From NCBI GenBank assembly GCA_005880875.1, contig VBJI01000005.1, positions 1 to 39,587 of the forward strand: a DNA stretch of 39,587 bases. The letters are read 5' to 3'. A program made the position numbers and the translations under genes. This DNA comes from Chloroflexota bacterium (lineage in GTDB: Bacteria > Chloroflexota > Dormibacteria > CF-121). Positions within the stretch are counted from its first letter, which is position 1; each line of letters opens with the position of its first letter. Under the pieces are notes generated by a model. That model did not search any database, was not told the origin of the DNA, and saw only the letters and a list, made by a program, of their open reading frames with translations. Below are positions 4,160 to 39,587 of this stretch, in pieces.

Positions 4160-4675
4160 ATGCCGGCGAAGCTAACCAGCCGACTCGCCGAGGTTTCCGA
4201 CGCCCCGGTCATCGCCATTATTTACAACGAGGGGATCGAAGACCGGGTGGCGACCTTCGAGACCGAACTCAGAACGGCCGAGGCAATCGCGGAACAGTTG
4301 CAGGCGCGCGCGGCGACCCACCCCGCGACGGTGGTCGAGCGCGATGGCCGCGTCGTAGGCTTCGCCTGGACTGGCGAGTACCGGCCGCGACGGGCGTACG
4401 CGGGGGTGGGCGAAGTCTCGGTCTACGTCGCCAGGGTGGCGCGCGGTCAGGGAGTCGGCCGGCTCGCGCTCGCGGTACTGATCGACGCGGCTGAGGCGCG
4501 GGGCTTCTGGAAGCTCGTCTCGCGGATCTTTCCCGAGAACGTCGCCAGCCGGCGCCTCTGCGCCGGACTCGGCTTTCGGGAGGTTGGTGTCTACCGGCGT
4601 CACGGCCGGCTGGACGGTACTTGGAAAGATTGCGTGATCGTGGAGCGGCTGCTGGGAAGCGCGGCGGACGATTAG
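4160..4675 (+). CDS. GNAT N-acetyltransferase, phosphinothricin/arsinothricin acetyltransferase-like
   Basis: IYNEGIEDRVATFETE..., VSVYVARVARGQGVGRLAL, GFREVGVYRRHGRLDGTWKDCVIVERLL. Confidence 0.85.
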   Translation: MPAKLTSRLAEVSDAPVIAIIYNEGIEDRVATFETELRTAEAIAEQLQARAATHPATVVERDGRVVGFAWTGEYRPRRAYAGVGEVSVYVARVARGQGVGRLALAVLIDAAEARGFWKLVSRIFPENVASRRLCAGLGFREVGVYRRHGRLDGTWKDCVIVERLLGSAADD

Positions 4676-5685
4676 CCCGCGGACCGAACCCCCGGCATTG
4701 TCTCGGCGTCGGTGGTCGCCACCAGTTGCAGGAAGCGCTCAACCAGGGAGGCATCCCACTGTTTCCCGGCCCCTTGCGAGAGTGTCTGCACCGCCTCGGC
4801 TTTGGACCGGCGTCGGCGATAGGGCCGATCGTTGGTCATGGCGACGAACGCGTCGGCGATCGCGATGATCCGCGCGAACAACGGGATGTCGTCGCCGCCG
4901 AGGCCGTCGGGATAGCCTGCCCCGTCGATCCGCTCGTGATGGTGGCGGACCGCCGGCAGCAATTGGTCGGATCGCGGCAGGGCGCCCAGGATCTCCTCGC
5001 TCACCACCGGGTGACGCTTCACCTGGCCGAACTCCGCGGGATCGAGGCGGCCTTCCTTGGCCAGCACACCGACCGGAACGCTAAGCGTACCGACGTCGTG
5101 CAGCAGGGCCGCCTTGTAGAGAGGCGTGAGCTGGTCATCAGGGAGCGCGATGGCGCTCCCGAGCTGCATCGCCCAGTGCGCCACCTTTTCCGAGAGACCG
5201 CTGCTGCTGTGATCGCGATCCTCGACGGCGCGAGCGAGAGTGACCACGACGCCCTCGAGGTTATTGAGCTGGGTTACGAGCCGCCCGATCCGGAGTTGAG
5301 AGCGGGCCAGCGTGAGGATCGCCGTTCGGTCCACGGGCGCGCTGGCGACATCATCCGCACCGGCCTGCAGGGCGCGCTCCCGCTGCAACTCGTCATCGCC
5401 GTCGATCAAGAGGATGACGGGAGTGTCCCGGGTGGCGGGCGCCTGCTTGATGGCGCGGCAGACTTCGAAGCCATCCAGATCGGACAGCAACGCGTCGCAG
5501 ACGACCAGGTCGCAGGCGTGGGCCGTCAACAACCGCAGGGCGGCGGCACCGTCGGAGGCGGTGATGACGCGGTACCCGGCGGCCTCCAATGCGGCGCGCA
5601 GTCGGGTCGCGCCATCCGGATCGGCGACAGCCACGAGGATCGTCGCGGGCGAGATGTTCGCCCGCGCGGTCTGGGACGCGATCAT
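4672..5685 (-). CDS. Receiver-like + HD-GYP domain protein
   Basis: REC-like N-terminus (DLVVCDALLSDLDGFEV), HD-GYP signature ALLHDVGTL...RHHHERIDGAGYPDGLGGDDIPLFARIIAIADAFVAMTNDRPYR. 4-bp overlap with the upstream XRE-TPR gene. Confidence 0.9.
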   Translation of the reverse strand: MIASQTARANISPATILVAVADPDGATRLRAALEAAGYRVITASDGAAALRLLTAHACDLVVCDALLSDLDGFEVCRAIKQAPATRDTPVILLIDGDDELQRERALQAGADDVASAPVDRTAILTLARSQLRIGRLVTQLNNLEGVVVTLARAVEDRDHSSSGLSEKVAHWAMQLGSAIALPDDQLTPLYKAALLHDVGTLSVPVGVLAKEGRLDPAEFGQVKRHPVVSEEILGALPRSDQLLPAVRHHHERIDGAGYPDGLGGDDIPLFARIIAIADAFVAMTNDRPYRRRRSKAEAVQTLSQGAGKQWDASLVERFLQLVATTDAETMPGVRSAG

Positions 5686-6974
5686 TTCCCGGGTTTGAGC
5701 AGAGTGGGGAGCTTGCTGAAATCCCGCTCGGCGGCCATCCGCATGAAGGCGAAGGCACGGTTCTGGTCACCGCGAGCCCGAAGCAGATCGGCGTACATGG
5801 CGCACACCTCGGCCAGCTTCCCCGCGGCGTTGCGTTCGGCCAGCAGCCGGAGCGCCAGTCTGAATTTCCGGTTTGCGACCGTGGGATGTCCGAGGCGCTC
5901 GGCCGCCATTCCTTCGAAGGCGGCAGAAACGGCCTGGTGGAGGTGATCGCCGGATCGAGCGGCGGCTTGCTGGCTCTCGCGAGCCAGCGCCAGCGCGTCC
6001 GTGGCCCGGCTGTCGTCGAGCGCGTAACGTGCGAGCTCGCCGGCGGCGACTCCGATCTCGAAGTCATCTGTCAGTTCGCGAGCTCGTTGCAGGCACCGCC
6101 GTTGGAGCGCGGTGGCTTCCCGCTTGCGTCCGGCCGCATAGTGGACGTCCCCCAGGTTGTTGAGGATGCGGTTAGCCGTGCGTTCGTGCCGGATCCTCGA
6201 GTGCAGCTCGAGCGCACGATTGCAGTGTTCCAGCGCGCGGTCGAGTTCTCCTACTTCGCGTGCTGCCACTCCCAGCGCCATGTGCGCGTTCGCGATCCGC
6301 AGCAAGCTCTCGGCGTCCGTCGCCGCGTCGAGCGCTCGGACCAAGTAGGCTATCGCCGCTGAGGGCTGGCCCAGGCGGAAGCTGCAGGTCCCGAGGTTGG
6401 TCAAAACCCGGGCGCGCAGCTCAGGATCGCCATGGCGGCAACGGTCGAGCCAATCGAGCGCGCGTCGATCTGCCTCGATGGCGCCGTTGTAACGCTCCTC
6501 GATCTGCAGAACCGTGCCGATCTCGGCGTAAATCGAGGCGTTGAGCTCGGGATCATCACTGGGAGCGGTGGCCGCCGCATCTTGTAAGGTCGTAAGGGCC
6601 TCCGGGTTCTGGTGAAGCTCCGACAGCGCCACGCCCCGAATCCTGTGAAGGTCAGCCCGCTCGTTCGCGGTGGCGGGCAGCACCCACGCCTCGGCCACGA
6701 TGTCCAGTGCCCGGGCAGGCTCGTCTGCTTGAACGGCCAGCTGCTCGCTTTTACGGAGCAGCGTCAATTGCTGGGGCGGCTGATCCGGCACGAAGTAGGA
6801 AAGGGGCTTACCCAATCGCTCCGCGATCACCCGAAGTTTGGGGAGCGACGGTGTCGCATGGTTGCGCTCGACCTGGCTGATGAACCCCTTGGTGGCGACT
6901 CCCCGCGCGAGCTGCGCCTGAGTTAGACCGCTCGCCAGACGGGCTTCGCGAAGACGCTCCCCGACCGAGTTCAT
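5682..6974 (-). CDS. XRE-family HTH + TPR repeat regulator
   Basis: VGERLREARLASGLTQAQLARGVATKGFISQVERNHATPSLPKLRVIAERLGKPLSYF HTH followed by multiple TPR repeats. Confidence 0.9.
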   Translation of the reverse strand: MNSVGERLREARLASGLTQAQLARGVATKGFISQVERNHATPSLPKLRVIAERLGKPLSYFVPDQPPQQLTLLRKSEQLAVQADEPARALDIVAEAWVLPATANERADLHRIRGVALSELHQNPEALTTLQDAAATAPSDDPELNASIYAEIGTVLQIEERYNGAIEADRRALDWLDRCRHGDPELRARVLTNLGTCSFRLGQPSAAIAYLVRALDAATDAESLLRIANAHMALGVAAREVGELDRALEHCNRALELHSRIRHERTANRILNNLGDVHYAAGRKREATALQRRCLQRARELTDDFEIGVAAGELARYALDDSRATDALALARESQQAAARSGDHLHQAVSAAFEGMAAERLGHPTVANRKFRLALRLLAERNAAGKLAEVCAMYADLLRARGDQNRAFAFMRMAAERDFSKLPTLLKPGK

Positions 6975-7022
6975 GCGACGCCTTCGAGTATAGCCTCACT
7001 AAACCATGTCACGGAAAGTATA

Positions 7023-7051
7023 TTGACAACAAATTGAACCGGGTGTTAAAT
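7023..7051 (+). promoter_or_regulatory. Sigma70-type promoter TTGACA-N17-TTAAAT for the small peptide gene
   Basis: Perfect -35 (7023-7028), 4/6 -10 (7046-7051), 17-nt spacer. Confidence 0.6.
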
Positions 7052-7068
7052 ACCGGCTGAGTCGGTCG

Positions 7069-7100
7069 GGGCACCCGGTCCACCCAGAAGGAGGGTGCCC
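7069..7100 (+). promoter_or_regulatory. Leader hairpin GGGCACCC/GGGTGCCC around the SD, abutting the start codon
   Basis: 8-bp perfect inverted repeat (7069-7076, 7093-7100); SD AAGGAGG 7088-7094. Confidence 0.6.
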
Positions 7101-7181
7101 ATGTACCGGTTGACCGCGCTCATCGTTTCTGTCGTCGCCGCTATCCTCGCCGTCGCCGACAGTTTTCCCAGTCCGCGCTAG
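7101..7181 (+). CDS. 26-aa putative secreted peptide precursor
   Basis: MYRLTALIVSVVAAILAVADSFPSPR*; strong SD, own promoter and terminator; hydrophobic core and AVA signal-peptidase-like site. Confidence 0.6.
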   Translation: MYRLTALIVSVVAAILAVADSFPSPR

Positions 7182-7201
7182 CGGGTTCCGGGGGCTCGGA
7201 C

Positions 7202-7231
7202 GGGCGCTTGTCATCCGACAAGCGCCCTTTT
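7202..7231 (+). terminator. Rho-independent terminator of the small peptide gene
   Basis: 11-bp perfect stem GGGCGCTTGTC/GACAAGCGCCC, 4-nt loop, TTTT. Confidence 0.85.
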
Positions 7232-7256: not shown

Positions 7257-11470
<4,214 letters not shown>

Positions 11471-38453: not shown

Positions 38454-39587
38454 TCACGCATCGAGGCTACTTAACGCCCCAGCGTAAGTGCTGGATCCCC
38501 GACCCGCTTCGTAGGCCTGGCGGAAATGGAGCGCCGCCTGGGCGGCATCCCCCTCGGCCTCCAGCGCGCGGGCGAAATCGTAGGTGACCCGGGCGCGCAG
38601 GTCCGGGTTGTCGATGGTCACGGCGACCTCGAGGGCGCGCTCGAAGTGGCGGTGCGCCGCGTCCCGGCGGTCGAGGGCGTGGGCGACTCGTCCCGCCGCG
38701 CGGTGGACGGCCACCACCGCCAGAGGATCGTTCGCGCGGGCCAACAGTTCGATCGCCTCGTCGATAAGATCGCTGGCCCGCCCCAATTCTTTGCGCTCCA
38801 GAGCGGACTCAGCCATGCCGGCGACCAGATGCGGGAGAAGCTCGCGCTCGTCGATACGGCGCAGCTGCTGGGCGCCTTCGGTGAACAGTCGCTCGGCCTC
38901 GACGGCCCGCCCCTGCTGCAGCAGCATGTCCCCCATGTTCAGGCGCAGCTGCCCGGTCATGCGCACGTCGCGGAGCGTCTCGAAGATGCGCAGTCCCTTC
39001 TGGGCATAGGACAGGGCCCGAGCGTACTGGCCGGTCTGGCGCAGCGACAAGGCCAGCCCTTCGTAGATTCCGGCCAGCGCCGCCATGTCGAGCACCTGCT
39101 CGGCGGCGGTCATCGCCGATTCGTATGCGCTGATCGCCTCGATCGGCTGGCCGGCGACGTAATGAAGATTCGCGCGGTGGCCGAGGATCCGAGCCTTGAG
39201 GGCCGGATCTTGAAGGCCAGCGGACTCGTAGCACTCGAAGGCTCGATCGAACCATTGGCCGGCGGCGTGCGGCCGCCGCTGCAGGTAATGAACGCTGCCC
39301 ATGCGGTCATACAGCTCCGCCAGCAGCTGATGGGCCTTCGATCGCTCCGCGGCGGTGATCGCCTCCTCCAGCAGCGGCCTGGCATCCTCCGGCCGGCCCA
39401 ACTTCAACTGCGCCGTCGCCAGTGTCAGCTGCCCCCGAGTCCGCAGGTCGAGGGGCAGCGGGCGAGCCAGGAGTCGCGTCATCAGCGACTCGGTCCGGGT
39501 CGGCTCGCCACGGTGAAGGCCGAGCTCCGCTTCCGCCAGCGTCAGCTCGAGCGCGGCCGTCGAGTCGCCCGGGTCTTCCAGGAAATA
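38454..39587 (-). CDS. TPR repeat protein, C-terminal part; probably a second XRE-TPR regulator truncated by the window edge
   Basis: TPR repeats; frame stays open to 39587 and begins YFLEDPGDSTAALELTLAEAELGLHRGEPTRTESL, aligning with the post-HTH region of the 5682-6974 protein (YFVPDQPPQQLTLLRKSEQLAVQADEPARA). Confidence 0.75.
   Translation of the reverse strand, partial: YFLEDPGDSTAALELTLAEAELGLHRGEPTRTESLMTRLLARPLPLDLRTRGQLTLATAQLKLGRPEDARPLLEEAITAAERSKAHQLLAELYDRMGSVHYLQRRPHAAGQWFDRAFECYESAGLQDPALKARILGHRANLHYVAGQPIEAISAYESAMTAAEQVLDMAALAGIYEGLALSLRQTGQYARALSYAQKGLRIFETLRDVRMTGQLRLNMGDMLLQQGRAVEAERLFTEGAQQLRRIDERELLPHLVAGMAESALERKELGRASDLIDEAIELLARANDPLAVVAVHRAAGRVAHALDRRDAAHRHFERALEVAVTIDNPDLRARVTYDFARALEAEGDAAQAALHFRQAYEAGRGSSTYAGALSSLDA

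Follow-up and report, generated by a model that had tools for sequence, protein, structure and literature searches.

A predicted RRNPP-like peptide pheromone gene beside an HTH-TPR regulator in Chloroflexota

In the 39,587-nucleotide stretch of Chloroflexota DNA analyzed here (the window; contig C91 of a MAG that is 75% complete), a 26-codon reading frame lies divergent from a gene for an HTH-TPR regulator, and it raises the question of whether so small a frame is a gene at all and, if so, whether its product is a signal read by the protein next door. The micro-ORF (7101-7181, + strand; ATG at 7101, stop codon TAG at 7179-7181) is preceded by the Shine-Dalgarno sequence AAGGAGG (7088-7094, + strand), which ends six bases 5' of the ATG and is conserved, and it stands 126 bp from the regulator ATG at 6974; all of these elements are where the initial annotation had placed them. 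The encoded peptide, MYRLTALIVSVVAAILAVADSFPSPR, consists of MYRLTALIVSVVAAILAVA followed by DSFPSPR, the predicted mature heptapeptide (7158-7178, + strand), which would be released after an AVA site of the signal-peptidase-I type. The n-region has a single Arg, and this residue, the hydrophobic core, and the AxA site are the features that our home-made criteria for a Sec/SPI secretion signal, as expected of RRNPP(A) propeptides, look for.

Orthologues of the regulator (58 to 81% identity) are present in nearly all members of its own genus and in two other genera of the same family. A divergent micro-ORF with a Shine-Dalgarno sequence, a promoter, and a downstream terminator hairpin was found at 15 of 15 readable loci, the window included; at a 16th locus (L017) the contig stops just 3' of the promoter, so that micro-ORF counts have n = 15. 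The frames keep the same length (26 to 28 codons), Shine-Dalgarno sequence, and tail length in every case, and the 15 peptides share an Arg within residues 1 to 4, a hydrophobic core, an [A/S]VA motif (L[A/S]VAD), and a seven-residue tail of the form D-[S/T/G/I]-x-[P/S]-[G/S/C]-[G/P]-[R/K/H], that is, D-x-x-(P)-x-x-[R/K/H]. The differences among them bear a coding signature: 0.285, 0.186, and 0.433 at codon positions 1, 2, and 3 (third-position excess, permutation p = 0.00075), with a pooled pN/pS of 0.52 by Nei-Gojobori counting. The initial annotation had proposed giving up the gene if the start, AxA site, and C terminus proved unconserved in orthologous loci or if coding constraint was missing; all three are kept and the constraint is there. 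Because micro-ORFs of this size fall below the usual gene-calling cutoffs, they are probably unannotated.

The promoter reads TTGACA (7023-7028)-N17-TTAAAT (7046-7051) on the + strand, with an alternative -10 box, TAAATA (7047-7052), at a spacing of 18. TTGACA is kept in 15/16 orthologous promoters (L014 has TTGACT), and the -10 box aligns better across orthologues as TAAATW, shifted one base 3'. Beyond the stop codon, an intrinsic terminator (7202-7231, + strand) comprises an 11-bp stem (7202-7212/7217-7227), the loop ATCC, and TTTT; its hairpin is conserved in the orthologues, most of which have longer T-runs. Both elements had been named in the initial annotation, and both sequences are present and conserved, but a strict consensus scan called neither the promoter (TTAAAT lacks an A at position 2) nor the terminator (four T only), so that the support for them comes from conservation and not from consensus. 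Between the stop codon and the terminator (7182-7201) we also observed a conserved GGTTCCGGGG stretch, GGTTCCGGGGG(C)TxGGA-like in the readable orthologues.

Two AGTATA elements, 30 bp apart (6987-6992 and 7017-7022, assigned to neither strand), complete the intergenic region. The second (AGTATATTGAC) abuts the -35 box and is present in all 16 orthologues, while the first appears there as AGTATA or GGTATA; they are candidates for an operator and/or for -10 boxes in the promoter that would drive the divergent regulator. When the putative operator AGTATATTGACA was sought genome-wide, the single occurrence was the intergenic site itself. Directly 5' of the ATG, the arms GGGCACCC/GGGTGCCC (7069-7076 and 7093-7100, + strand) would form an 8-bp leader helix that holds the Shine-Dalgarno sequence partly in its loop and partly in its stem. 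In the orthologues, 95% of cells are paired, two pairs show compensatory changes, and the covariation score is reached by 2 of 500 shuffles, a count biased toward structure because the arms were aligned by hand. Covariation is confined to this short helix; the RNA fold of the whole leader plus the coding part is unexceptional (z = -1.1). An inverted repeat, ACCGGGTG-N-CACCCGGT (7038-7079), was also seen to span the -10 region, its first arm lying 5' of the -10 box; it is largely conserved in orthologues and apparently covarying (for example, GGCGGGTG/CGCCCGCC in L015). Its right arm is common to the leader hairpin, so that if both structures exist as RNA, only one of them could form at a time.

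The predicted receptor (5682-6974, - strand) is a 430-residue protein with an XRE-type HTH and nine TPRs. Pfam identifies HTH_3 (residues 8 to 61) and TPR, and an AlphaFold2 model built from the regulator and nine orthologues shows an HTH plus nine TPRs with a pLDDT of 84.6, the HTH region being less certain. Searching the PDB with this model by Foldseek returned LGN first (E = 6e-10) and Rap proteins next, from E = 3e-8, among them RapJ:CSF (4gyo; TMq, 0.63 to 0.64), RapI, and Rap-phi3T with pheromones; because the best structural matches are the eukaryotic LGN TPRs, the TPR likeness is not specific to RRNPP. The protein is nonetheless an HTH-TPR regulator, as originally described, and its model resembles Rap-pheromone complexes. 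Sequence matches to solved RRNPP proteins are weak (E = 2e-4 to 5e-3), PlcR and ComR matching in the HTH only (PlcR, E = 2e-4) and Rap in the TPRs only (E = 5e-4), which indicates the architecture of an RRNPP receptor and leaves common descent unproven. Matches in a viral fold library were for the most part generic TPR proteins or proteins with other repeats, with no AimR-named entry among those listed, and a plasmid search for related receptors gave no convincing homologue outside the phylum.

The pairing extends well beyond the orthologues. Regulator homologues of the same class at 23 to 54% identity also have a Shine-Dalgarno-led micro-ORF upstream, divergent in the closest paralogues and co-directional in others, where its stop codon lies about 100 to 200 bp 5' of the conserved regulator start. 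Under strict criteria (a Shine-Dalgarno sequence, a basic residue, an 11-residue stretch with hydrophobicity above 2.2, a small-x-small site, and a tail of 4 to 16 residues), such a frame was present in 55 of the 87 upstream regions taken from homologues of the regulator within this Chloroflexota class, the 87 regulators being related and the counts therefore not independent. The same criteria were satisfied by 19 of 2,804 random 650-bp intervals (0.68%) and by 1 of 1,740 shuffled upstream regions (0.06%), the shuffle being the cleaner control because the random intervals are mostly coding. Recurrence in 15/15 orthologues against a background of 0.7% or 0.06% confirms that the micro-ORF is real and beyond chance. 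A relaxed, uncontrolled search added about 15 more, for a total of 70/87. The other 17 regulators yielded no micro-ORF, even under the relaxed criteria, and 13 of these belong to one 15-regulator clade; a nearby micro-ORF is thus not always needed, and this clade serves as an internal control. Three further peptide clades, each taken independently, showed the coding signature as well (p = 0.00035, 0.0025, and 0.00015).

Among other Chloroflexota families, outside this class, comparable longer propeptides were found at about 6 of 27 loci inspected. Longer or repeated-unit propeptides lie beside related regulators at L130, L131, L149, L152, and L155, the one at L152 containing two PVDPGYPQ units. 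In the large genomes of family f17, related regulators mostly stand without a clear upstream micro-ORF. Taken together, the evidence shows dozens of predicted peptide-sensor pairs in Chloroflexota, a family and not one locus.

The C-terminal tails of these peptides are mostly uniform in length. Exactly seven residues follow the last Ala-type site in 48 of 63 single-unit propeptides, and Pro occurs in the tails of 59 of the 63. Among 59 distinct peptides, 44 have seven-residue tails, versus a mean of 6.6 (maximum of 16 in 2,000 trials) after shuffling of the final 15 residues. Tail type tracks the receptor tree clade by clade: DxxPG[GP][RKH] and DIMPGWK/EIWPGWK, EVWPNPx, xIGPTP, DSTGPGI, and xVPxCC. 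In the sister group of the EVWPNP receptors, the precursors carry two or three [DE]-x-WPN units, and the window genome itself has one of these tandem precursors (AEIWPNGPEFVIGEIWPN, on contig C99). In tandem precursors it is the tail motif that is multiplied, and not the hydrophobic part, which points to the tail as the functional product. The Cys-rich clade (xVPxCC) gave no codon-position signature (p = 0.64). Its tails (VPCC, PPCC, and PGCCL; L069, L081, L086, L087, L088, L093, L096, and L099) may imply a disulfide-bonded or otherwise modified pheromone. The window also holds another receptor homologue, belonging to the EVWPNP clade (38454-39587, - strand; 85% identity to the L051 regulator), whose 5' end and peptide gene are lost off the contig end; in relatives, the peptide gene lies immediately upstream.

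These regularities bear on three other explanations of the locus. The transcript could be a structured regulatory RNA or an attenuation leader in which the reading frame is incidental, and the covarying hairpin around the Shine-Dalgarno sequence and the conserved stretch in the 3' untranslated region would suit such a role. An incidental frame, however, would not account for the codon-phase bias, the pN/pS below 1, and the constant ORF length; the unit is divergent and has a complete terminator of its own, and equivalent peptides occur with unrelated flanks in other clades. We therefore give this explanation hardly any credence.

The remaining two accept the peptide as real and differ in what it does. 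Small membrane toxins are hydrophobic peptides of 20 to 30 amino acids, and their genes often have an XRE regulator next to them; the peptide could thus be a small effector resembling a bacteriocin or a type I toxin, whether secreted or active on membranes, with the HTH-TPR protein merely regulating its gene. Its size and hydrophobicity, its own promoter and terminator, and its XRE neighbor all fit. Against this stand tails that are constant in length and clade specific in sequence, the tandem WPN tail units of the sister clade, the fact that the short tails are not strongly cationic, and an adjoining region free of immunity or export genes, which together make an effector highly improbable. 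Alternatively, the ligand might act in cis: either the precursor or what is left of its signal peptide would be sensed inside the producer as a report on secretion or translation status rather than on population density. That a signal peptide can yield a ligand is known from the sex pheromones cut out of lipoprotein signal sequences, and gene adjacency and the leader hairpin at the Shine-Dalgarno sequence suggest tight control of expression. Yet the hydrophobic part is not multiplied in the tandem precursors, and in two clades (C and D) the tails are better conserved than the signal part, so we regard sensing in cis as highly improbable.

What the receptor might control is suggested by its other neighbor, a receiver plus HD-GYP response regulator of the c-di-GMP phosphodiesterase type (4672-5685, - strand; Pfam HD_5 and Response_reg). 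The start of this gene overlaps or directly abuts the receptor stop codon, and it adjoins the receptor in 16/16 orthologous loci (55 to 82% identity), although it was not found at the two PGWK paralogue loci. From this arrangement, the HD-GYP gene is a probable co-transcribed output of the receptor, and the adjacency in all 16 loci suggests that the pair may tune c-di-GMP. Also encoded in the genome are signal peptidase I and five oligopeptide-permease-type SBP_bac_5 proteins. On the far side of the micro-ORF, and convergent with it, a UPF0182 gene (7257-10000, - strand) is split over three frames, although in relatives it is open over about 945 to 1,023 amino acids; it lacks about 41 residues at two sites, one near 8530 and one near 9430, and the split appears to reflect either an assembly artifact or a pseudogene.

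We consider it very likely that the micro-ORF encodes a pheromone precursor whose heptapeptide, DSFPSPR, is read by the neighboring HTH-9TPR regulator to control the shared operator and c-di-GMP turnover. The precursor would probably leave the cell through Sec, with signal peptidase I cutting behind AVA to free DSFPSPR, which would build up outside and then be taken up by an oligopeptide permease. Inside, it would bind the concave groove of the regulator and alter, in one direction or the other, its action at the putative DNA target, the shared intergenic operator, thereby affecting the regulator/HD-GYP operon, and with it c-di-GMP turnover, as well as the peptide gene. That the peptide is the ligand of the TPR protein was the proposal of the initial annotation, and it has gained support from the recurrence of short ORFs beside the regulators across about ten receptor clades, from the clade-specific heptapeptides, and from the HTH-9TPR model. 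The best reading is thus an RRNPP-like pheromone/receptor system outside Bacillota, in which we infer export, import, and binding.

It is also likely that this locus belongs to a phylum-wide pheromone superfamily of Chloroflexota, with several HTH-9TPR receptors per genome, each having a separate heptapeptide code that signal peptidase I frees directly or that comes from tandem-unit precursors, and one of them wired to c-di-GMP via a co-transcribed HD-GYP protein; relative to RRNPP, this superfamily would be either a deeply diverging branch or a product of convergence. If so, a largely uncultured soil phylum has multiple short-peptide codes, for which about 60 concrete candidate peptide sequences are ready for synthesis and testing. 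The Chloroflexota receptors would also connect peptide sensing with c-di-GMP and offer an outgroup for the unresolved RRNPP root.

Our search of an open-access literature collection returned no report of RRNPP-type signalling in Chloroflexi/Chloroflexota, a provisional result. The described range of RRNPP(A) is Bacillota and their mobile elements (PMC10075063, PMC12700828, PMC11343458), whereas the loci here are in Chloroflexi MAGs; "RRNPP-like" is therefore the right term, and to call the system an RRNPP member would go beyond what is established. Among curated families, the Streptomyces HTH/TPR regulators of the NsdA type give a weak TPR match (NCBIfam NF053720) that is far below the cutoff and lower than those of the AfsR and HaaT TPR regions, and a single literature search found no peptide partner for NsdA. 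The HD-GYP protein resembles RpfG-type response regulators in its receiver and its HD-GYP domain with a HHERIDGAGYPDG motif, encoded downstream of the receptor, but its genetic partner is a peptide/TPR pair, and no sensor-kinase gene was seen adjoining.

NprR consists of an HTH and nine TPRs, the same domain order and TPR count as our AlphaFold2 model, although no specific sequence match to NprR was found, and NprR was absent among the 50 Foldseek matches listed. Nine-TPR folds have been discussed for the RRNPP family (PMC12700828). Relative to RRNPP(A) systems (NprR/NprX, PlcR/PapR, PrgX/PrgQ, Rgg/SHP, Rap/Phr, and AimR), the pairs described here differ in their Chloroflexota host, in their weak sequence similarity to solved receptors, in a predicted product that would be freed by one signal-peptidase-I cut and need no further trimming, and, in the window clade, in genetic coupling to HD-GYP. 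There are also likenesses. RRNPP(A) is recognized by a small propeptide of 10 to 100 amino acids encoded beside the receptor gene (PMC10075063), and here a predicted propeptide of 26 residues lies 126 bp from its predicted receptor in all readable orthologues. That receptor, at 430 residues, falls within the 250-to-500-residue range of the cytosolic HTH-TPR receptors and has nine TPRs in a Rap-like superhelix and the N-terminal HTH found in all of the family but Rap. Its predicted ligand is a short C-terminal product with Pro, as is PapR7 (ADLPFEF; PMC6568020), and the tandem-unit precursors of its relatives have counterparts among the tandem pheromone precursors of RRNPPA systems (PMC11343458).
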